Assembly: GCA_021787985.1 (NCBI GenBank)
Contig: JAJYLG010000012.1
Location: forward strand, 1-57,193
Origin: Chloroflexota bacterium
Lineage (GTDB): Bacteria; Chloroflexota; Dehalococcoidia; DSGV01
Length of the DNA stretch: 57,193 bases
Direction of reading: 5' to 3'
A model generated the notes under the pieces. It searched no databases. It was given only the letters and a program-made list of their open reading frames with translations, and was not told the DNA's origin. The position numbers were made by a program, and so were the translations under genes. This document shows positions 31,224 through 42,852 of this stretch, piece after piece. How positions within the stretch are numbered: position 1 is the stretch's first letter; each line of letters begins with the position of its first letter.

Positions 31224-31697
31224 CTACTGTCCGCCCGAGTACGAGGTCACCGGCACCTGCAGGCGCACCGTACCGGCGCGCTCGAACTTCAGCGTGACCC
31301 CGATGCGCTGACCAGCCTTCAACGGACGCGCCACGCCCATCAGCATCACGTGGTAGCCACCGGGCTTCAGCACCACCTCGCCGCCGGCCGGCACCTCGAC
31401 GCGCGCCACGTCCTGCATCTTCATGGACATGCCTTCCATCACCATCGCCATGAGCTGGGCACTCTTGGCGGCATCGGTCGAGACGGACAGCAGCGCGTCC
31501 GTTTCCTTGCCCGCGTTCCCTATCGTGAGATACAGCACGCTGACGTCGTCGGCGGTTGCCCGGGCGGTGGCGTTCGTGACGCGCACGTCGCCGACGCGCG
31601 CGTTCCCGACAGGCGTGCCACCACCGCAGCCGACGACCGTGAGCACGGCGGCGACAAGCATGGCACCCACTGCCGAAGCACGCCTTGCAGGGATCAT
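31224..31697 (-). CDS. PCu(A)C-type periplasmic copper chaperone (lipoprotein)
   Basis: A 157-residue protein. Signal with lipobox VLTVVGC; copper-binding Met/His pattern in LMAMVMEGMSMKMQDV and PGGYHVMLMG, the H-x10-M-x21-H-x-M type site of PCuAC. These deliver Cu(I) to CuA centres together with SCO proteins. ATG 31697 overlaps the TGA of the SCO gene (ATGA) and is preferred; ATG 31709 is also in frame. Last gene of the nos/copper operon, consistent with CuA assembly for NosZ and the small CuA proteins. Confidence 0.88.
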   Translation of the reverse strand: MIPARRASAVGAMLVAAVLTVVGCGGGTPVGNARVGDVRVTNATARATADDVSVLYLTIGNAGKETDALLSVSTDAAKSAQLMAMVMEGMSMKMQDVARVEVPAGGEVVLKPGGYHVMLMGVARPLKAGQRIGVTLKFERAGTVRLQVPVTSYSGGQ

Positions 31698-32446
31698 CCG
31701 CCGGTCCATCCTTGCCTCACCAGCTTCTCCAGGTCGTGCGCCCAGTCGTCCGCGGTGAATCCTTGCGGGTAGATGAGGTGCGCCAGATCGTCGGTTGTGT
31801 AGGCGAGAACGTACGCCGCGTGATTGACGGCGTAGTTGCCGCCGCCCAGCGGCTCCTTGGTCGCCGGCGCCATGCCGAGCGCCCGTTGCACGGCGTCGAT
31901 GGCTGCCTGCCTTCCGGCCAGCCCGATGAACCGCCGGTCGAAGAGGTCCAGCCACTCGCGCAGGCGCTGGGGCGTGTCGCGCTCGAGGTCGGCCGTGACG
32001 AAGACCACCTTGATCTTGGCGGCGACATCCGGCGGCACCTTCTTCAGGGCGCCCGCGATGGTCGCCATCTGCAGCGGGCACACGTCCGGGCAGTGTGTGT
32101 AGCCGACATAGAGCAGCGTTACGTAGCCGTCGGTCGCCTGGCGCAAGCTGAAGGGGGCGCCCGTGGTGTCCGTGAGCGTGACGTCGGGCTTGGCAATGGG
32201 CGGCGTGATCTGGATGCCGTAGTAGCGGCCGGCTTCCGGTCCCCGCGCGGCGGAGGAGGTCGCGGGCGGCGTGCGCGGCGAGACGCGCGACCCGCAGGCG
32301 GCAGCGATGAGGCTCAGCGCGACCACCGCCGGCAGCAGGCGCGCCGGCCAGTTCCACGACGGCCGACCGCGTAGCCGTCGGAGCGTCGAGCGGCCGCGGC
32401 CCGGCGAGCCCCGGCGGATCGGACAAGCCCGATACGCTGGCAGCAT
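31694..32446 (-). CDS. SCO1/SenC-family copper chaperone
   Basis: A 250-residue lipoprotein (signal LLPAVVALSLIAAACG). The thioredoxin-like domain has LLYVGYTHCPDVCPLQMATI (Cu-binding CxxxC) and the distal His in NYAVNHAAYVLAY. It loads or reduces CuA sites. It sits 5 bp after nosL and overlaps the PCuAC gene by 4 bp. ATG 32446 is used; frames upstream of it belong to other genes. Confidence 0.88.
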   Translation of the reverse strand: MLPAYRACPIRRGSPGRGRSTLRRLRGRPSWNWPARLLPAVVALSLIAAACGSRVSPRTPPATSSAARGPEAGRYYGIQITPPIAKPDVTLTDTTGAPFSLRQATDGYVTLLYVGYTHCPDVCPLQMATIAGALKKVPPDVAAKIKVVFVTADLERDTPQRLREWLDLFDRRFIGLAGRQAAIDAVQRALGMAPATKEPLGGGNYAVNHAAYVLAYTTDDLAHLIYPQGFTADDWAHDLEKLVRQGWTGG

Positions 32447-32451
32447 GCCTC

Positions 32452-33114
32452 TCAGCTCCTTCCAGCGGACGAGACGCCACCGCCGGGCCATCGGCGGGTC
32501 GCGCCTCGAAGCGCCGGAGTGCGCTTCGAGGCCGGCGTGCCGGCGGACGAGCCAGGGCGGGGCGGCGCTTGGAGCAGCTCGGCGTACGCGTGAACCGTGC
32601 CCCGGCGGTCGGCCGCGAACTGCTTCGCGGCGGCCGGGCCGGCGAAGGCGGCCAGGTCGAAATCCATCGGCGTGTGCAGCTCGGGGCTCACCACGTACGT
32701 CGCCTGCTCGGCCGGGATCCACTCGCGGGTGTGGTAGTCGTGGACGAACATCGCCTTCACGTCTGCAGGGGCGAGGTGGTGCTCCTGGTAGAAGGCGAAC
32801 ATCTCGCCGAGGTCGTCGAACTTCCACACCTGACTGCGGGTGCCGAGGATCTCGGCCGCCTCTCGCAGGTCGGTGATGAGCATGCCGCAGCGGGCGCAGG
32901 TGTCCCCGGACTGTATCGGGACCGGCCGTACGGCGCCGACACCGGCCCGCCCACAGGCGGCCAGCGCCGGCGACGCGCCCAGCGCCACCAGCACCATGCC
33001 AGCCGCTCGCCGGAGCAGGTCCCGTCGGCTCAGAGGCGGCAGTGGTCGCCACGTGCGGGCCCGGGTGCTCGCCTCTGCGCCGCCGCCGCGGCCATCCCAC
33101 AAAGCCAGGCTCAT
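32452..33114 (-). CDS. nosL: NosL, copper chaperone for nitrous oxide reductase
   Basis: A 220-residue lipoprotein-like NosL: RRDLLRRAAGMVLVALG export signal with twin Arg and a Cys at AACG, then GDTCARCGMLITDLREAA (the NosL CxxCGM copper motif), KFDDLGEMFAFY, and DYHTREWIPAEQATYV. The last about 35 residues are Pro/Arg-rich. NosL supplies Cu(I) to the NosDFY/NosZ assembly. ATG 33114 is used; an upstream GTG at 33189 would extend it 25 residues. Separated from nosY by 175 bp without a gene. Confidence 0.88.
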   Translation of the reverse strand: MSLALWDGRGGGAEASTRARTWRPLPPLSRRDLLRRAAGMVLVALGASPALAACGRAGVGAVRPVPIQSGDTCARCGMLITDLREAAEILGTRSQVWKFDDLGEMFAFYQEHHLAPADVKAMFVHDYHTREWIPAEQATYVVSPELHTPMDFDLAAFAGPAAAKQFAADRRGTVHAYAELLQAPPRPGSSAGTPASKRTPALRGATRRWPGGGVSSAGRS

Positions 33115-33289
33115 GGCTCGTCGCTCCCACCGGGCCTGCGCGCCGGCGGCATCCGCCAAGGCCCGCGCCTCGTGCGTGACGACTCTCATCCTCGCGCCTC
33201 TCGACCGCCCGAACACGGCACCGATCCCTGCTCCCCGGCAGTCCCCGCGGGCTGACCCGTGCGCCGTTCGCTGTGCCGACGTGTCGTGG

Positions 33290-34120
33290 TCACACCGCGT
33301 CCTCGCGCGCGAAGATCCAGTAGCCAGCCACCAAGGGCAGGCTGCTCCACAACGCCAGGAGTCCCACCAGCACGGGCAGGTTCCACCCGCCGAGCGTGCG
33401 TGAGAGGAGCAGCCCCGCCGGGCCCAGGGTCTCCGGCGAGGCACCTGCCGCCAGGATCGCTGCCACGCGAAAGTCGGTGAGCGGGTTCACCAACGCGAGG
33501 GTCAGGAGCTGACCCGCCTGGAGTTGCATGGCAAGGCCGGCGCCCAGGAGCCCCAGGTCACCGACGAAGACGAAGACCAGCCACAGCCCTACCGCCAGCC
33601 CGACGGCCGCCGCCGTCCGCTGCACGAACGCGGACAGGAGCATTCCGACCGCCAGTCCTGCCAGCGCGAGAAGGAAGGCCAGTCCCGCCAGCGCCAGGTA
33701 GGGTCCGGCCTGACCTCCGCCCCCCGCGGCGGCGATGATCAGGCCGGGGAGACCAAAGCCAACCGCGAGGGCAGCCGCCAGGGCAGCCGCCAGGCCGCAC
33801 CACTTGCCGGCAAAGAGCTCCTTGCGGGTGATGGGCTGGGCCAGCAACGTCGCCAGCGTACCGCGCTCGCGCTCCCCCGTCAGGCTCAGTGCACCGACGG
33901 AGAGACCCATCAGCGGGACGATCAGGAGCACCAGGCTGATCAGCGCGGCGGAGGTGCGGCCGAAGCCGGCCAGACCGGCCAGGCCGCCGCCGGCCAGCCC
34001 GAGGTAGGAGAGCCCGAACGACAGGAGGACGAAGGCCCCCGCGTCCATCAGGAACCAGCGGTTGCGCAGCGCGTCGCGGAGCTCCTTCGTCGCCACGGCC
34101 GACACGGCGTCCACACTCAT
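33290..34120 (-). CDS. nosY: NosY, ABC permease for NosZ copper-site maturation
   Basis: A 276-residue six-helix ABC-2-type permease: VATKELRDALRNRWFLMDA at the start, GALSLTGERERGTLATLLAQ (coupling segment), VGLWLVFVFVGDLGLLGAG, VNPLTDFRVAAIL and the C-terminal PLVAGYWIFAREDAV. These are NosY hallmarks. It pairs with the ATPase encoded by the preceding fused gene, overlapping its TGA by 4 bp (ATGA). Role: ATP-driven conformational change in CuZ assembly. Confidence 0.9.
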   Translation of the reverse strand: MSVDAVSAVATKELRDALRNRWFLMDAGAFVLLSFGLSYLGLAGGGLAGLAGFGRTSAALISLVLLIVPLMGLSVGALSLTGERERGTLATLLAQPITRKELFAGKWCGLAAALAAALAVGFGLPGLIIAAAGGGGQAGPYLALAGLAFLLALAGLAVGMLLSAFVQRTAAAVGLAVGLWLVFVFVGDLGLLGAGLAMQLQAGQLLTLALVNPLTDFRVAAILAAGASPETLGPAGLLLSRTLGGWNLPVLVGLLALWSSLPLVAGYWIFAREDAV

Positions 34121-36588
34121 GACTCCTGCTCCAGCTCGAAGTCCTCGACGCTGATCCCCGCGCGGCTCAGCTCCAGGAGAGGCGATGCCTTGTGCCCGGC
34201 TCCCACTTCCACCACCAGATGGTCCGGGTACTCGGCCACGACGTAGCCGCGCTCTCTGAGCGCCCGAGCGGCCTCGTCACGGGGCGAACCGGAAAGCGGC
34301 AGGCGCAGGCGCGAGCCGCCACGTCCGCGGAAGCCCGCGGCTGCCACCTCAGCGACGATGGCGCCGGCGTCGAGCCGCACGACGCGGTCTGCAAGGACCT
34401 GGACCTCGTCGGCATGGTGTGCAGCCAGCAGCAGAGCCGTGCCGCGCTGTTTGAGCTGCGTCAGCAACGCCAGCAGGTCTCGCCGGCTCTGCTCGTCCAG
34501 GTTGGCGGTCGGCTCGTCGAGCAGCAGAAGGGGAGGCTCGCCGATCAAGGCCACGGCCAGCGCCAGCTTGCGACGCATGCCCCCGGAGAGCGCGGAGACT
34601 CGCTTCTCCCGATGGGGGACGAGGCCGGTCAGGTCCAGGAGCTCGGCCACGCTCGCGCCCTGGGCGGCCTGGGCGCCCTTGAAGCGGTGGTAGAAGGCGA
34701 GCGTCTGCGCCACGGTCAGCTCGGCATGGAAGGCGGGTTCCTGGGCCACGTACCCGAGGCAGCGCAAGGCGCGCTTGGGGTCGCGGCGGACATCCCAGCC
34801 CGCCACGCGAACCTCTCCCTGGTAGCGAAGGAGGCCCAGGATACAGCGCAGCACGGTCGTCTTGCCCGCCCCGTTCGGGCCCCAGAGGGCCACGGCCTCC
34901 CCTCGCCTCACCGCAAGGCTGATGTCGTCCACGACCCGCGCGGTGCCGAAGCGCTTCACCAGGTTGTGCACCTGCAACAGCGGAGGTTCGCCGCGCATTA
35001 CTTCCGCCTCCCCGCTGGCCTCCGCGGTCGCCCCCGGCAGAGTTTCCGCGCCCCGCCCATCGCCGCTCACCGATGGGAAGGGCGTGAAAGTGGGCGGACG
35101 CGCGATTTCGTCGCGGCTGACCGTACCGACCGCCGGGGAGCACGGCGCAACAGCGCCGGCCCGATCCCGAGCTCGGCGCCCGCGCAGCGCGCCCGCCAAC
35201 AGGCCGAAGGTCGACAGCAGCATCCCCAGGGCAGCGGTGCCCAGAGGCAGGCGGGAAGGATGCGGCAGCGGCAGGTCGGCCGCCAGCAACGGACGGACCA
35301 GAGGGGACGGGTCCAGGACCACGGTGTTCGGCGTGAAGACCGGGAACGCCATCGCGGCCCAGTCGATGGCGCTGGCGGCTGGGCTCAGCAGGAAGAGCCG
35401 CAGCTCGGGGTGCGCGCTCGCGAGCTGCTCGAACATCCGGCGTGAGACGTAAGGGACATCGCCCACACCGTCGCCGTCCGCGTCGTAACCCGTGTAGTCG
35501 CTCCAGAAGTTGCCCCGCCCGTGCCACGCCCAGGTGATGCCGTCGAGGGTCCCCTCCCCATCGAGCCGCACCTGCTGCTGGTTGTTGAGGAACGAGTTGC
35601 CCCTGAACACATCTCCGCGGAGGGCGGGGTCCAGGGCCAGACCCGCGTCGTTGTAGGCGACCACGTTGTCCTCGAACAGGTTCGGCGCATCCGAAGCGCG
35701 AGGAGATTCGTAAACATAGAGGCCGACGTGATTGTCCAGGATGAGGTTGTCGCGGGCTTCCACCCGATCCATGTCCCGCAGCCCGATGCCGATGCCGGTC
35801 GGGCCGCGGTTGCGGCGGGCGAGGTTCCTTTCCAGCCGCAGGCCAACGCTGTACATGAAGTAGGCCCCGACGGCGTCATCCTCGAACACGTTGCCGACCG
35901 CGCGGCAGTCATCGCTGTACATGAGGTGGAGGCCGTAGCGGCCAGCGCGGAACTGATTGTTCGCGACCGTGCTGTCCGGCGAGAACCAGAGCAGGTCGTC
36001 GCGGGCGCCGGTCACGGTGTTGCCGGTAATGGTCACCCCTCGGCTGTACCAGAGGCGGATGCCGTCGCCCCGCCGGGCCAACGGCAGTGCCTTGCCCGTG
36101 ATGGTGTTCGTTTCGATGCGGCTTCCGGGAGCCTGCTTGAGATAGATGCCGAACAGCACGTCCTCCAGGCGGTTGTTGGCCACGACCACTTCCGGCGCCT
36201 CCACCGAGACCCCGGTGTCCTCGTGATCGAGGCTGGTTCCGCTCCCCCGCACGACGAATCCCTCAATGCGACTGTCCTGGGCCGTAATCCGCACGACGGT
36301 GCCCTGGCCTCCGCCGTCGATCACCGGCCCGCCCACGCCCTGCAAGCGGACAGGATGATCGATCAGCAGCGCGCCTTGGTACTGACCCTGAAGGACGGTC
36401 ACGGTGGCACCGGGGGGCGCCGCGGCAAGCGCCTGCTGCGGCGTGTGGTAGGGACACGTGGGACACACCGTCAGGGAGGCTGCGGGGGCCGTCGCGCCGG
36501 CACGCGCGCCGGCAGACGCGACGGCCGCCGCGAGCGCCGCCAATCCCAATGCCGGCAGAGCGATGGTTCGCGCGAGCCTCCGACTCAC
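34117..36588 (-). CDS. nosDF: NosD-NosF fusion: periplasmic beta-helix copper protein joined to ABC ATPase
   Basis: One uninterrupted 823-codon frame from GTG 36588 (overlapping the upstream TGA). Residues 1-35 are a signal/anchor. Residues about 45-440 are a NosD right-handed beta helix (VVRGSGTSLDHEDTGVSV, RYGLHLMYSDDCRAVGN, NLFEDNVVAYNDAGLAL, WHGRGNFWSDYTGYD). Residues about 449-470 are a transmembrane helix (ALGMLLSTFGLLAGAL). After a 60-residue linker, residues 531-823 are NosF: Walker A WGPNGAGKTT, Q-loop YVAQEPAFHAELT, signature SALSGGMRRK, Walker B LLLLDEPTANLDE, H-loop AAHHADEV. Normally these are two proteins. The helix would place NosD in the periplasm and NosF in the cytoplasm, a topologically sensible fusion. 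Confidence 0.9.
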   Translation of the reverse strand: MSRRLARTIALPALGLAALAAAVASAGARAGATAPAASLTVCPTCPYHTPQQALAAAPPGATVTVLQGQYQGALLIDHPVRLQGVGGPVIDGGGQGTVVRITAQDSRIEGFVVRGSGTSLDHEDTGVSVEAPEVVVANNRLEDVLFGIYLKQAPGSRIETNTITGKALPLARRGDGIRLWYSRGVTITGNTVTGARDDLLWFSPDSTVANNQFRAGRYGLHLMYSDDCRAVGNVFEDDAVGAYFMYSVGLRLERNLARRNRGPTGIGIGLRDMDRVEARDNLILDNHVGLYVYESPRASDAPNLFEDNVVAYNDAGLALDPALRGDVFRGNSFLNNQQQVRLDGEGTLDGITWAWHGRGNFWSDYTGYDADGDGVGDVPYVSRRMFEQLASAHPELRLFLLSPAASAIDWAAMAFPVFTPNTVVLDPSPLVRPLLAADLPLPHPSRLPLGTAALGMLLSTFGLLAGALRGRRARDRAGAVAPCSPAVGTVSRDEIARPPTFTPFPSVSGDGRGAETLPGATAEASGEAEVMRGEPPLLQVHNLVKRFGTARVVDDISLAVRRGEAVALWGPNGAGKTTVLRCILGLLRYQGEVRVAGWDVRRDPKRALRCLGYVAQEPAFHAELTVAQTLAFYHRFKGAQAAQGASVAELLDLTGLVPHREKRVSALSGGMRRKLALAVALIGEPPLLLLDEPTANLDEQSRRDLLALLTQLKQRGTALLLAAHHADEVQVLADRVVRLDAGAIVAEVAAAGFRGRGGSRLRLPLSGSPRDEAARALRERGYVVAEYPDHLVVEVGAGHKASPLLELSRAGISVEDFELEQES

Positions 36589-37325: not shown

Positions 37326-39338
37326 TCATGCCTGAACCAGGAAGTAGCCCATCATCTCCAGGTGCAGCGCCGAGCAGAACTCGGTGCAGTAGAAGGGGTA
37401 CGTCCCAGCCGTGTCGGCCTGGAAGGTGACCGTCAGAGTCTGGCCCGGATCCGTGACCACGCCGAGGTTGTAGCCGGGGAGGGCAAACCCATGGCTGGCG
37501 TTCCGGGCCGTCTCGATGTTCGTGATGTGCCAGACCACCGTGTCACCCTGGCGCACCGACACCACGTCAGGCGTGTAGTGGCTGCGCACCGCGGTCATGA
37601 ACACCTCGACCTTGCTGCCGTTGCGCACCACACGCTCCTTGCCCTTCGCCGTCGCGTTGGGGTCCTTGGACCACGTGACGGCGCTCCACCCGACCTCCGG
37701 GTAGACCAGCACGGGCTTGACGCGATCTGCCGGAATGATCTGCGCGTAATGCGGCTCGCCGTCGGGGGTGGGCACGTCGTAGAGCACCTGCATGCCTTCC
37801 GGACGCGAGATGTCCACGAGCTGCAGGTTAACCGTGTGGTGGGGCCCGGTCGGCGCGAACCGGTCGAGCGACCACTTGTTCAGCGAGACCAGGTAGGCGC
37901 CCAGCGGGTTGACCGTGTCGCCGCACACCGCCGCCACGTGGCCGACGTTGTACTGGATCGGCACCTTGCCCGCCAGCTTCCAGCCGTCCTGACGATAAGG
38001 CGCCCCCAGGCTCCAGCGAGCAACGGCGCTCTCCAGGAAGAGGCTGGTGTAGCCGAAGCCCTGGTTGTCGAACTGCGTGTGCAGCGGCCCCAGGCCGAGC
38101 TGCACCTGCGCCTCCATCGCGTCGTCGAAGCGGATGATCGGCAGCCCGTAGGAATCTTGGTCGAAGCTCCCCTTGGCGATGGCGTCCTGGATCTTCTTGA
38201 AGCTGTAGACGGTCACGTGCGGGTCGAGCTTGCCGGAGACCACGATGTAGTCGCCCTTGGGCGCCACGTCCACCCCGTGAGGGCTCTTCGGCTCCGGGAT
38301 CAGGTAGAGCAGCCCGTGCTTGACCGCCATGTCCATCCGGATCAGGCGCATGCCGTTGACGGTGTCCACCATGCCCTCGCTGACCACCTGCTCCGCCTTC
38401 TTCCAGTTGATGACGTGCAGGTAGTCCATGTCCCGCTGCGAGGCGCCCACCTCCATTGGCGGCTTGCCCTCCGCGTCGCCGCCGGTCGCCATCTCGGTGT
38501 TGAACGAGTTGATGAACGCCCATCCGTCGCTGGCCAGCTTGCCGGAGTCGGCGAGGTCCTGGAAGTAGGGCGGCAGCTCCATGGACCAGGATTGGGCCGG
38601 GTCGATGCGCCCTTTCTGGCGGTCGAACTTCCAGAAGGTCACCGCCCCGCGGTACTTGTCCTTGTACTCGTCCAGCGGGGCGTAGCTCCAGCCCAGCGGC
38701 GTGGAGTACTGGCAGGACTCGATCACGTACTCGGTGTTGGGCGTGACGAAGGTGCCGCCGTGGTCGTCGATGATCAGCGGATTCTTCACGATCTGCTTGG
38801 TCATGAAGTCGCGCAGGTCGATGACCGCGATCCGCCCGCCGGCCTTGTCGTTGATGAACAGGAACTGGCCGTCGTAGTCCCCTTTGGTCTCACTCAACGC
38901 CGGGTGGTGCGTGTCGCCCCAGGTCGTGAGCTTCCCGTTCACCTGGCCCCGCTTGAGGATCTCGAGCGACTCGTCGGAGTAGCCCCAACCCTGGTACGAG
39001 GAGTGGCTGAAGACCGGAATGACCTTCAGGATGCGCATCGAGGGAATGCCGTAGACCCACACCTGTCCGGAATGGCCACCCGAAGCGAACAGGTAGTGCG
39101 TGTCCAGCTTCCCTGACGGCGTGTACGTCTTGAGCGCCGCGACGATGTCGCCCGGGTTGAGGTTGCGCTGCTTCGCGATGGCCAGGGCGTCCTGCGGCAG
39201 CCCCGTAGCCGTCGGCTGCGCCGCGGGCCCGGCGGCGCCACCGCCCCCGAGCACGGTCTTGCCGATGACCCCGCCGACCACCAGCCCACCGCCACCCACC
39301 GCTGCGCTCTTGATGAGCTCGCGCCTGGTTACCGCCAT
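37326..39338 (-). CDS. nosZ: Nitrous oxide reductase
   Basis: A 670-residue NosZ reducing N2O to N2 in the periplasm. AAAGGAGG lies 8 bases before ATG 39338. Twin-arginine signal TRRELIKSAAVGGGGLVVGG. A seven-bladed propeller carries the CuZ histidines, visible in TWGDTHHPALS, IIDDHGGTFVT, YLHVINW, SPHGVDVAPKG, LGPLHTQFD, YNVGHVAAVCG and GEPHYAQII. The C-terminal cupredoxin domain holds CuA: NASHGFALPGYNLG and FYCTEFCSALHLEMMGYF (CxxxC, His, Met). All ligands I can locate are present, so it looks active. Accessory genes follow in the same operon. Confidence 0.95.
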   Translation of the reverse strand: MAVTRRELIKSAAVGGGGLVVGGVIGKTVLGGGGAAGPAAQPTATGLPQDALAIAKQRNLNPGDIVAALKTYTPSGKLDTHYLFASGGHSGQVWVYGIPSMRILKVIPVFSHSSYQGWGYSDESLEILKRGQVNGKLTTWGDTHHPALSETKGDYDGQFLFINDKAGGRIAVIDLRDFMTKQIVKNPLIIDDHGGTFVTPNTEYVIESCQYSTPLGWSYAPLDEYKDKYRGAVTFWKFDRQKGRIDPAQSWSMELPPYFQDLADSGKLASDGWAFINSFNTEMATGGDAEGKPPMEVGASQRDMDYLHVINWKKAEQVVSEGMVDTVNGMRLIRMDMAVKHGLLYLIPEPKSPHGVDVAPKGDYIVVSGKLDPHVTVYSFKKIQDAIAKGSFDQDSYGLPIIRFDDAMEAQVQLGLGPLHTQFDNQGFGYTSLFLESAVARWSLGAPYRQDGWKLAGKVPIQYNVGHVAAVCGDTVNPLGAYLVSLNKWSLDRFAPTGPHHTVNLQLVDISRPEGMQVLYDVPTPDGEPHYAQIIPADRVKPVLVYPEVGWSAVTWSKDPNATAKGKERVVRNGSKVEVFMTAVRSHYTPDVVSVRQGDTVVWHITNIETARNASHGFALPGYNLGVVTDPGQTLTVTFQADTAGTYPFYCTEFCSALHLEMMGYFLVQA

Positions 39339-39480
39339 GAGCGGTTGCCTCCTTTCCGATTCCCCGACTTCTTGCCCCTCCACAGGTCACCGGCGCCGTC
39401 TTCGCCCTGCCCCCGGCGTCGCCAGCCCGTGCGACCACACCCTTCGCGAACCACCCGCGATGTCGTGACCGCCGACACCG

Positions 39481-39954
39481 CTAGCGGACGTGAACCGTAC
39501 CAGCCATGTCCGGCTGATGCAGGTCGCATACGAACCGAAATGTCCCGGTCTTCACGAACTTGACCTGGAACTTGCTCTCGCTCCCGGGATTGATCAGGTC
39601 GCTCACGGCGTCCTGGCCACCGGTGGCCTCGCCGGGAACGTGCATGTTGTGAATGGAGGTCCCTTCGTTCTTCAGCAGGAAGGTGACCGTGGTATTGACG
39701 GCAACCGTGACGTCTTTCTGTACGTAGTAGTTGTCTTTCATGTCGATTGTCAGTTCCTTGCCAGTAGGACCCGCGGTGCCGCCGCTCGTCGGCGCCGCGG
39801 CCGTGGCCGTGCCGGTGCCCTGCGGCTGGGAGATGACGCGGCCGCTCTCGCCGCAGGCGGCGGAGATCAGCAGCGCCGCGAGCGCCAGCGCCGTGGCCAG
39901 TGCCAGGGCCCCGCGCCTGCTCCCCAGTTTCAACGTGCTTGCCATCGTCCTCAT
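39481..39954 (-). CDS. Blue-copper cupredoxin lipoprotein
   Basis: A 157-residue protein from ATG 39954 (AGGAG upstream). Lipobox LLISAACG; Ser/Thr/Gly linker; cupredoxin fold from residue about 67 (KELTIDMKDNYYVQKDVTVA). Type-1 copper ligands: His in GTSIHNMHVPG, then Cys, His and Met in FVCDLHQPDMAGTV. A membrane-tethered one-electron carrier, a plausible electron donor to NosZ in this cluster, which lacks c-type cytochromes. It lies 142 bp upstream of nosZ on the same strand. Confidence 0.85.
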   Translation of the reverse strand: MRTMASTLKLGSRRGALALATALALAALLISAACGESGRVISQPQGTGTATAAAPTSGGTAGPTGKELTIDMKDNYYVQKDVTVAVNTTVTFLLKNEGTSIHNMHVPGEATGGQDAVSDLINPGSESKFQVKFVKTGTFRFVCDLHQPDMAGTVHVR

Positions 39955-39974: not shown

Positions 39975-40394
39975 CTATCGCCGGCTTCCCGGCGTCATCC
40001 CGCCGCCGGCTGGCTCGACGACGAGCTGTCCCTGCATCCGCTGGTGGTTCGGACCGCACACCACGCTGCACAGGAACGGGAACGTGCCGACCTTGTCCGC
40101 CACGAACTCGACGATGGTGTATTCGCCCGGATAGACATCGTTCGTGGCGATGCCGTACCCGCCCAGCACGAAGCCGTGTACGGCGTCGTGGCTGGTCACC
40201 AACAGCCGCACCTTCTCGCCCTGCCGCACCCGGATCTCGTTCGGCCTCCAGATGCTGTTAGGACCGGCGACCAGCACGACCTCACGAGCGCCCTGGTGGC
40301 TGTGCAGCCAGCCGTTGTAGGCGAATGCCGCCGCCGGTGTTCCGACGACCGTGGCCAGCACCAGGACCGCCGCCAGGGACTGCGACCAGCGCAC
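39975..40394 (-). CDS. Small CuA-type cupredoxin (cytochrome oxidase subunit II-like), copy 1
   Basis: A 139-residue protein: N-terminal signal/anchor (SLAAVLVLATVVGTPAAAFA), then a CuA domain with His in SHDAVHGFVLGGYGIAT and the binuclear motif FLCSVVCGPNHQRMQGQL (Cys-x3-Cys-x3-His-x2-Met). The usual two-helix hairpin of subunit II and any oxidase subunit I are absent, so it is a stand-alone CuA protein. Candidate electron carrier or copper donor to the NosZ CuA site, which uses the same ligand arrangement. It ends 20 bp before the cupredoxin gene. Confidence 0.85.
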   Translation of the reverse strand: MRWSQSLAAVLVLATVVGTPAAAFAYNGWLHSHQGAREVVLVAGPNSIWRPNEIRVRQGEKVRLLVTSHDAVHGFVLGGYGIATNDVYPGEYTIVEFVADKVGTFPFLCSVVCGPNHQRMQGQLVVEPAGGGMTPGSRR

Positions 40395-40805: not shown

Positions 40806-42227
40806 TCACCCCAGGTAGAGCCACAGCAGCAGCACCGTCGCCGCCGTCAGGACCGCGGCGACCGGAGCCAACGCCCGCAGGCGGTGCGACCGGCCCCCAA
40901 GGCACTCCTCAGCGATGCGGTCCCCCAGCACGATCGAGAGAGCCAGACCGACCAGGAGCGTCGGGGCCTGCAGGTATGGGAGCACCTGGGGGACGTACGG
41001 CGTCCACCCGTGAGTGCCGGTGTGGAACAGGTTCCACGCCCAGCCGAACGGGTCCGACAGCACCGGGATCGCGTACGAGACGTTGATGAAAAGAAACCCG
41101 AGGCTGAACGCGATCCAGGCGGCCAGCCCGAGCGGAACAGCCGTGTAGGCGAACGCCACGAACAAACGCCGCAGCGGGATATGCGTGACGCCGGCCATCA
41201 GCCTTCCCAGCCAGCTCGCCGCCAGGAAGAAGCCCGGGACCACGACCAGCATCGAGCCGACCAGCATGGCGACGTAGCCGAGGAAGTGGACCGGAGAACC
41301 GCTGCCGAGATCCGCCCAGCTCTTCATCCAGCCCCACGGGCCCATCATCACCACGGAGTAGATAATGGCGGCCGCCAGCATGATGAACGCCTTGTAGGCC
41401 TCGTCCAGTCGCCGCTCGGGGACGAGCAGGTCGGCGCCGACCGGCCGCAGGTTGAGCGCGATGTTGTCCAGCGGGCACGTCTTGATGCATTCGCCGCACA
41501 GCCCGCAGTACGAGTTCCGATCCAGACTGCCGGGGTACTCCATCCAGGGGCAGCCATAGCCCTGGGCCGAGCCCTTCATGCACTCCTTCCCCTGGGCTCC
41601 GCAGTGCTTCAGGCAGACATTTCGGTCAACGACCCGCAACTCGAGCGGCGCCACCGTGGAGTACAGACCGATGAAGCCGCTGACCGGACACACATACCGG
41701 CAAAACGCGCGCCGACGGTACAGCAGGAAGAGCCCGAGGGCCACCACCATGAATCCCAGCAGCAGCACACCCGTCACCTTTGGCCGGGTCAGGATGATGG
41801 CGCTGAAGCTCGCCACCGCCGCAAAGGAGAAGTTCTGGAGCCAGATGTTGCGCAGCGGCTTCGGCCACTCCTTCCCCAGCGAGAGCGGCCGCGCTCGGCT
41901 GCGCGGCACCAGGGCTCCGCGACGCTGCACCCACTCGCCGATCGCCGGGATCGGGCACATCGTGCACCACAGCCGTCCGGCCAGCGGGATGAGCAGCACG
42001 ATCAGCAGCGCCCACCAGACGATCCACACGAAGATGATCGAGAAGTTCCGGTTCCCCACGGGCGTCCCGAACAACCCCGTAAGGATCACGAGAACGAACA
42101 CGAAGAGGTTCGCGAGGATGAGCAAGAACGGAAACCAGCGCGAGCGCAGAACCCGCTTGGCCGGTCCATACCGCAGCAGGTTGACACGGCTCTCCTGCCG
42201 GGGCTCGACCTCAGCTATCTGTATCAC
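40806..42227 (-). CDS. NapH/NosR-type polyferredoxin membrane protein
   Basis: A 473-residue protein from GTG 42227. Several helices (FPFLLILANLFVFVLVILTG, IIFVWIVWWALLIVLLIPLA). Membrane-adjacent Cys motifs are CTMCPIPAIGEW and CRYVCPVSGFIGLYS, followed by CLKHCGAQGKEC and a ferredoxin site YCGLCGECIKTCPLDNIALN. C-terminal helices follow. This is the 4Fe-4S half shared by NosR, NapH and CcoG, lacking the N-terminal FMN domain of true NosR. In non-proteobacterial nos operons such proteins (often called NosH) are thought to move quinol electrons toward NosZ or its maturation. It overlaps the upstream CuA gene by 17 bp. Confidence 0.85.
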   Translation of the reverse strand: MIQIAEVEPRQESRVNLLRYGPAKRVLRSRWFPFLLILANLFVFVLVILTGLFGTPVGNRNFSIIFVWIVWWALLIVLLIPLAGRLWCTMCPIPAIGEWVQRRGALVPRSRARPLSLGKEWPKPLRNIWLQNFSFAAVASFSAIILTRPKVTGVLLLGFMVVALGLFLLYRRRAFCRYVCPVSGFIGLYSTVAPLELRVVDRNVCLKHCGAQGKECMKGSAQGYGCPWMEYPGSLDRNSYCGLCGECIKTCPLDNIALNLRPVGADLLVPERRLDEAYKAFIMLAAAIIYSVVMMGPWGWMKSWADLGSGSPVHFLGYVAMLVGSMLVVVPGFFLAASWLGRLMAGVTHIPLRRLFVAFAYTAVPLGLAAWIAFSLGFLFINVSYAIPVLSDPFGWAWNLFHTGTHGWTPYVPQVLPYLQAPTLLVGLALSIVLGDRIAEECLGGRSHRLRALAPVAAVLTAATVLLLWLYLG

Positions 42228-42735
42228 TGGCCCGTCCCCTTCTTCCGACGTACACCACCGTCCCAACAGCGACCATCAGCGCCGCGGCTGCCGTGGCGAG
42301 AAACACCGTGTTCGTGTATCGAGTGCCGGACTGGACGTCGAGCTGGCCGACCATGAAGGGATGCAGCGGGCCGCACGTCTCCGAGCAGCGAAAGCGGAAC
42401 ATCCCGGGCTTGTCGGCCACGAACTCCGCGGTGCTCTCGCCCCCGACCGTCGCGTATGTCTGGATGCCGTATCCCTCCAGGTAGAAGCCGTGCGTCACGT
42501 CCAACGGCTGCAGGTGGATGACGACGCGATCTCCCTGATGGACCAGCAGGCGCTCCGGCGAGTACGAGAACCGCCGCGCTGAAACCGTGAATTCGCGTGT
42601 CACCGCGCTTCCGCCGCGTCGGGGAAAGTACGAGCCCAAGGCAACCGCGAGAACCGCGATCACCATGACGCCCGCGAGCGCCAGTGCTCCCTTTCGCCTG
42701 GCGAACGAGACTGCCCCCAGCCGCATCTGTCGCAT
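42211..42735 (-). CDS. Small CuA-type cupredoxin (cytochrome oxidase subunit II-like), copy 2, with two membrane helices
   Basis: A 174-residue protein from ATG 42735. N-terminal helix LALAGVMVIAVLAVALGSYF; CuA domain with QPLDVTHGFYLEGYGIQTYA and FRCSETCGPLHPFMVGQL (Cys-x3-Cys-x3-His-x2-Met); a C-terminal second helix FLATAAAALMVAVGTVVYVG. The two helices flank the copper domain, unlike copy 1. First gene of the nos operon as seen here. Likely carries electrons or copper toward NosZ; no oxidase subunit I is nearby. Confidence 0.85.
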   Translation of the reverse strand: MRQMRLGAVSFARRKGALALAGVMVIAVLAVALGSYFPRRGGSAVTREFTVSARRFSYSPERLLVHQGDRVVIHLQPLDVTHGFYLEGYGIQTYATVGGESTAEFVADKPGMFRFRCSETCGPLHPFMVGQLDVQSGTRYTNTVFLATAAAALMVAVGTVVYVGRRGRASDTDS

Positions 42736-42852
42736 CGCCTTCCTTCCGTTACGTCCCACGGGGTGGCATCCACCCTCGTGCCGTTCCAACCCGCGTCCTG
42801 CCCGGGCCTCCCGCCCGTTGCGCGGCACCACCGCCGGACCGGGAGCCGCCAG

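Follow-up and report, generated by a model that had tools for sequence, protein, structure and literature searches.

Biological removal of N2O depends on an enzyme that requires the NosDFY complex for its construction. In the window analysed here, a 57,193-nucleotide contig (JAJYLG010000012.1) from a Chloroflexota bacterium, NosD and NosF appear in a single open reading frame beside nosY. We asked whether this frame is a genuine fusion of nosD and nosF, how such a fusion could arise and keep a workable topology, and what it would mean for the number of each subunit in the complex.

The nosDF reading frame and its neighbours

The gene and its parts lie on the minus strand as follows.

34117..36588 (-): nosDF fused gene, 823 aa; open frame whose GTG start shares 4 nt with the upstream stop
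36499..36588 (-): N-terminal signal sequence, residues 1-30, MSRRLARTIALPALGLAALAAAVASAGARAG; AlphaFold2 helix at 3-29
35293..36468 (-): NosD right-handed beta-helix, residues 41-432; TIGR04247 and P. stutzeri NosD 7o0y_A
35170..35244 (-): predicted transmembrane helix, residues 449-473; AlphaFold2; net charge 0 before it and +4 after it
34999..35169 (-): predicted cytoplasmic linker, residues 474-530; disordered, pLDDT <50
34120..34989 (-): NosF ATPase domain and its C-terminal domain, residues 534-823; 7o0y_B match and AlphaFold2

The initial annotation described NosD and NosF as one polypeptide without giving the strand, and the frame bears this out: on the minus strand, 823 codons stay open between GTG 36588 and the stop codon at 34117-34119. 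The frame might open farther upstream; we took GTG 36588 as the start because this codon overlaps the previous gene's stop (GTGA) and a good signal sequence begins there. The NosD model TIGR04247 scores 409 bits over residues 51-432 (model positions 2-377 of 377), above its curated cut-off of 300, and a domain search places Pfam NosD at residues 160-367 and ABC_tran at residues 554-695. The ATPase is complete, as had been proposed, with intact Walker A (GPNGAGKT, 570-577), signature (LSGGM, 667-671) and Walker B (LLLLDEP, 687-693) motifs, and these columns are invariant or almost so across an alignment of 35 fused proteins.

An AlphaFold2 prediction of NosDF, made from an alignment of 35 fused proteins, has a mean pLDDT of 83.5, mostly above 90 in the beta-helix and mostly above 85 in the ATPase. 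Between these two parts it places a helix at residues 449-473 (block pLDDT about 80), in close agreement with the transmembrane helix originally put at about 449-470, and it leaves residues 473-532 disordered. With its N-terminal side outside and its C-terminal side inside, the helix gives the topology first suggested. Its hydrophobicity is moderate, at a Kyte-Doolittle value of 1.67, and the value falls below 1.5 in 5 of the 36 other fused genes.

Because ABC ATPases are alike and many of them hit the NosDF chain, the ATPase half could be an unrelated ATPase joined to NosD. We consider this very improbable, since the solved NosF 7o0y_B (its positions 5-285) aligns with residues 539-822, C-terminal domain included, and the chain thereby combines complete ABC motifs with the NosF C-terminal domain. 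Moreover, nosY follows directly after the ATPase half. An alignment of neighbouring split NosFs gives 398 bits for NosDF versus 190 for the best further ATPase in the genome, though this alignment includes the window's own row and hence leans towards NosDF. In the assembled genome (189 contigs, about 96% complete), we found no other convincing NosF and no second NosD above the TIGR04247 cut-off.

The neighbouring genes are as follows.

37326..39383 (-): nosZ, clade II N2O reductase; TIGR04246, 855 bits
36585..37286 (-): membrane protein, NosB-like in its position between nosZ and nosD
33290..34120 (-): nosY permease; ABC2_membrane_2, matches 7o0y_D NosY (E 5e-22), ATGA overlap with nosDF
32452..33444 (-): NosL-like copper lipoprotein inside this frame, judged by sequence and position only, with its start somewhere within
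31694..32416 (-): SCO1/SenC copper chaperone domain; PF02630

The nosZ and NosB-like genes lie upstream of nosDF, and nosY, the NosL-like frame and the SCO1 domain lie downstream. The adjacent nosY and the linked nosZ are features of a NosDFY system; the locus departs from the descriptive, non-curated picture of three separate polypeptides in that NosD and NosF share one frame. The Pseudomonas stutzeri system (PDB 7o0y series; NosDFYL 7osf) has the same operon setting, with nosZ and copper chaperones, and its NosD beta-helix, NosF with C-terminal domain, and NosY all match by sequence. Its NosD and NosF are separate, however, whereas the window joins them in a single chain that also contains a membrane helix. 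P. stutzeri NosD has 436 aa, and the match ends at residue 421.

Several further features were observed around nosZ. The NosB-like protein was matched by no Pfam or NCBIfam model, and relatives of it are encoded in 76 related loci. The NosZ N-terminus (39240-39383) carries a Tat-like motif (TRRELIKSAAVGGGG), though the TIGR04246 family is named 'Sec-dependent'; Thermomicrobium roseum NosZ has a similar N-terminus (SRRGLLG), and a simple RR motif is present in 8 of 71 related NosZ proteins. Upstream of nosZ are three small cupredoxin genes (39481-39954, 39975-40394 and 42211-42831), two of which hit NosZ models in their C-terminal CuA part, and a gene for a NapH-like ferredoxin protein (40806-42266) adjoins them. 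These cupredoxins are possible electron donors to NosZ.

Fused genes in other genomes

We searched 400 genomes from the window's own phylum and added a scan of genome contigs that kept the 80 closest relatives; together these yielded 98 NosD loci that could be used, counting that of the window. NosD and the ATPase share one frame at 37 of these loci (the window and 36 others), a fraction that is not an unbiased prevalence because the contig scan retained only the closest relatives. Two loci were left unscored as fused or split, one interrupted by Ns (L037) and one at a contig end (L082). The fused carriers belong to Chloroflexota, Planctomycetota, Armatimonadota, Calditrichota and Tectomicrobia, together with one KSB1 MAG and unplaced MAGs. 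This search for other chains combining NosD with an ABC ATPase had been proposed, and the nosDF fusion that it found spans at least five phyla.

These genes bear directly on whether a sequencing, assembly or base-calling error deleted a nosD stop from the window, one contig in a draft genome assembly. One relative does show such an artefact: in CP059258.1 (L109; 7278-11051), an apparent NosB-NosD-NosF-NosY frame is artificial. We rejected this 'triple fusion' because the record contains Ns throughout and has them at the frame breaks: an NN falls precisely where NosF meets NosY, and others lie close to NosB/NosD and within the NosD helix. The window's junction contains no N, and the assembly has neither a stop nor a frameshift between residues 470 and 531, the interval where one would have separated the two proteins. 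A hidden one is very unlikely given that the other 36 fused genes come from nearly as many separate assemblies and that a finished isolate genome annotates the fusion as one CDS. The missing-stop error is effectively refuted.

That finished genome is T. roseum DSM 5159, whose plasmid NC_011961.1 carries the fused CDS at 172989-175340 (L115:5911-8262; 783 aa, WP_012643063.1). The protein has the same order of NosD, helix, linker and NosF and is 44% identical to the window's. Permease and NosL genes follow directly, with no separate ATPase gene in between. RefSeq names the protein as NosD only, leaving the ATPase half unnamed.

Two Thermoflexus loci (L049 and L073) also carry a fused gene, as in the window. 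For the nos system of Thermoflexus hugenholtzii, excerpts of the published account (PMC8129789) list nosZDYL and no nosF, consistent with an ATPase hidden inside nosD, and make no mention of the fusion. The same excerpts report that this related cultured organism consumed no N2O in tests, so that activity with a fused NosDF in T. hugenholtzii is at most predicted. Our literature search, with most subscription papers outside its scope, found no published NosD-NosF fusion, which does not prove that none has been reported.

Origin of the fusion and predicted topology

The fusion had been presented as a different architecture for the maturation machine. This is too strong, because the NosD of split relatives already has a C-terminal membrane helix, and the parts, their order and their topology are the same in these relatives. 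Each of the 59 scored split relatives has a hydrophobic helix at the C-terminal end of its NosD (Kyte-Doolittle >=1.57), and the stretch after it is on average more positively charged (+2.5). A C-terminal helix is likewise reported for the NosD of Bacillus azotoformans (PMC3475470), which, with the split clade II loci L041 and L105, resembles the window in this respect. In the split clade II loci examined, nosF directly follows nosD, mostly with a start/stop overlap, and a stop codon parts the two proteins, unlike in the window. The 3′ end of nosD is an xTGA start/stop overlap in 45 of the 59 split relatives, and in about half of the split loci this overlap is clearly the nosF start. By comparison, four proteobacterial NosDs (Phaeobacter, Cupriavidus, Azospirillum and Rhizobium) have no such helix (at most 0.81), and neither does the solved NosD (436 aa), judged by its length.

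Where NosD already ends in a helix and the genes overlap, little beyond loss of the stop is needed for fusion. We propose that nosDF arose when the nosD stop was lost at a translationally coupled nosD/nosF junction, with the pre-existing helix preserving topology. Stop loss, with a frame adjustment for the -4 overlap, would convert an anchored NosD into a chain of correct topology; an unanchored NosD would not yield one.

On a tree of NosD alone, fused and split forms interleave, with 12 state changes, at least 6 of which are forced by supported branches. A single clade of all fused genes is rejected (log-likelihood difference 372, p-AU 1.4e-9), also after leaving out L037 and L082. This tree alone does not separate gain from loss of the fusion; we favour repeated fusion, since in the Proteobacteria examined, too, the two genes are split and overlap. 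Transfer of fused genes between phyla is likely in some cases. Loci L013 (Chloroflexota) and L056 (Isosphaeraceae) lie close together on the tree, likely through such a transfer, or else one bin is misassigned. In sum, nosDF is a genuine, recurrent variant of NosDFY, made of known parts in a joined form.

Several steps would allow the joined chain to work. The N-terminal signal would export it, so that the NosD beta-helix folds outside the membrane, and the chain would cross the membrane once, at residues 449-473. The NosF ATPase would hang on a flexible cytoplasmic linker of about 60 residues, dimerise and drive NosY, and NosDF-NosY would assist in assembling the NosZ copper centre. We infer the export, dimerisation and NosY partnership from homology, and we infer that the full-length chain is translated. 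Taken as a whole, we hold it highly probable that this is a real nosD-nosF fusion, with an exported NosD, a single crossing and a cytoplasmic NosF working with NosY, and that it originated by stop loss.

Alternatively, the inserted chain could be cut into separate NosD and NosF and form an ordinary complex, as proteases could reach its long disordered linker (473-532). We regard cleavage as unlikely: the alignment of fused proteins showed no conserved linker motif, and the linker's length (15-57 residues among relatives) and sequence vary freely. Codon-position counts between close pairs found fast linker evolution with little third-position bias and no clear selection on its sequence; the linker sequence is therefore of little use for judging selection for the joined state.

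Subunit numbers and a candidate internal start

The complex had been described as one NosD on a NosF2Y2 core, and the chain counts of the solved entries agree: in the PDB 7o0y series, NosD has 16 chains in 16 entries, NosF 30 in 15 and NosY 34 in 17, giving 1:2:2. From this it had been argued that joining the two must bring NosD and NosF into equal numbers unless the chain is processed. The argument holds if only the fused chain is made, in which case each ATPase pair would carry two NosDs. It is weakened by two sequence elements at the junction that could yield free NosF.

35007..35011 (-): GGAGG, 8 nt upstream of ATG 34998; could serve as an internal ribosome-binding site
34996..34998 (-): ATG in the nosDF frame (residue 531), from which free NosF could start; three codons ahead of the NosF domain

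Internal initiation at this ATG had been named earlier as a way of producing NosF separately. The gene would then give two products, NosDF from GTG 36588 and free NosF from ATG 34998, the second adding to the fusion and not replacing it. For the junctions of 32 non-redundant fused genes, we obtained expected counts by shuffling the linker codons. In 11 of them a Shine-Dalgarno-like site accompanies a start codon (4.9 expected, p 0.0015), and strong sites occur in 7, the window gene included (1.4 expected, p 0.0005); these P-values are guides, as the motifs were self-chosen and several were examined. Such start sites are several-fold rarer within the bodies of NosD and NosF than at the junction.

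The presence of a motif is no proof of initiation, however, and the enrichment could be a relic of a former nosF start after recent fusions. About two-thirds of fused genes have no Shine-Dalgarno-like junction site, and the linker has no start codon at all in 5 of 36, so that a dual product is not general and chains made only in fused form probably occur too. For the window gene, where the junction motifs suggest that free NosF may also be made, we judge a dual product to be a real possibility, somewhat short of an even chance. If so, a mixture of NosDF and free NosF could keep the 1:2 ratio. More tentatively, site-bearing genes might assemble NosDF, NosF and two NosY (1:2:2, set by translation), with site-less genes making a symmetric complex that carries two NosDs; we think this division rather doubtful.

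Recognition of nosDF corrects the annotation of fused genes: when these are named as NosD only, genomes that carry nosF can seem to lack it, and Thermoflexus is a likely case. Where a gene makes only the fused chain, a ratio of one NosD to two NosF would require processing, and this natural tie between NosD and NosF therefore makes the question of subunit numbers directly testable.
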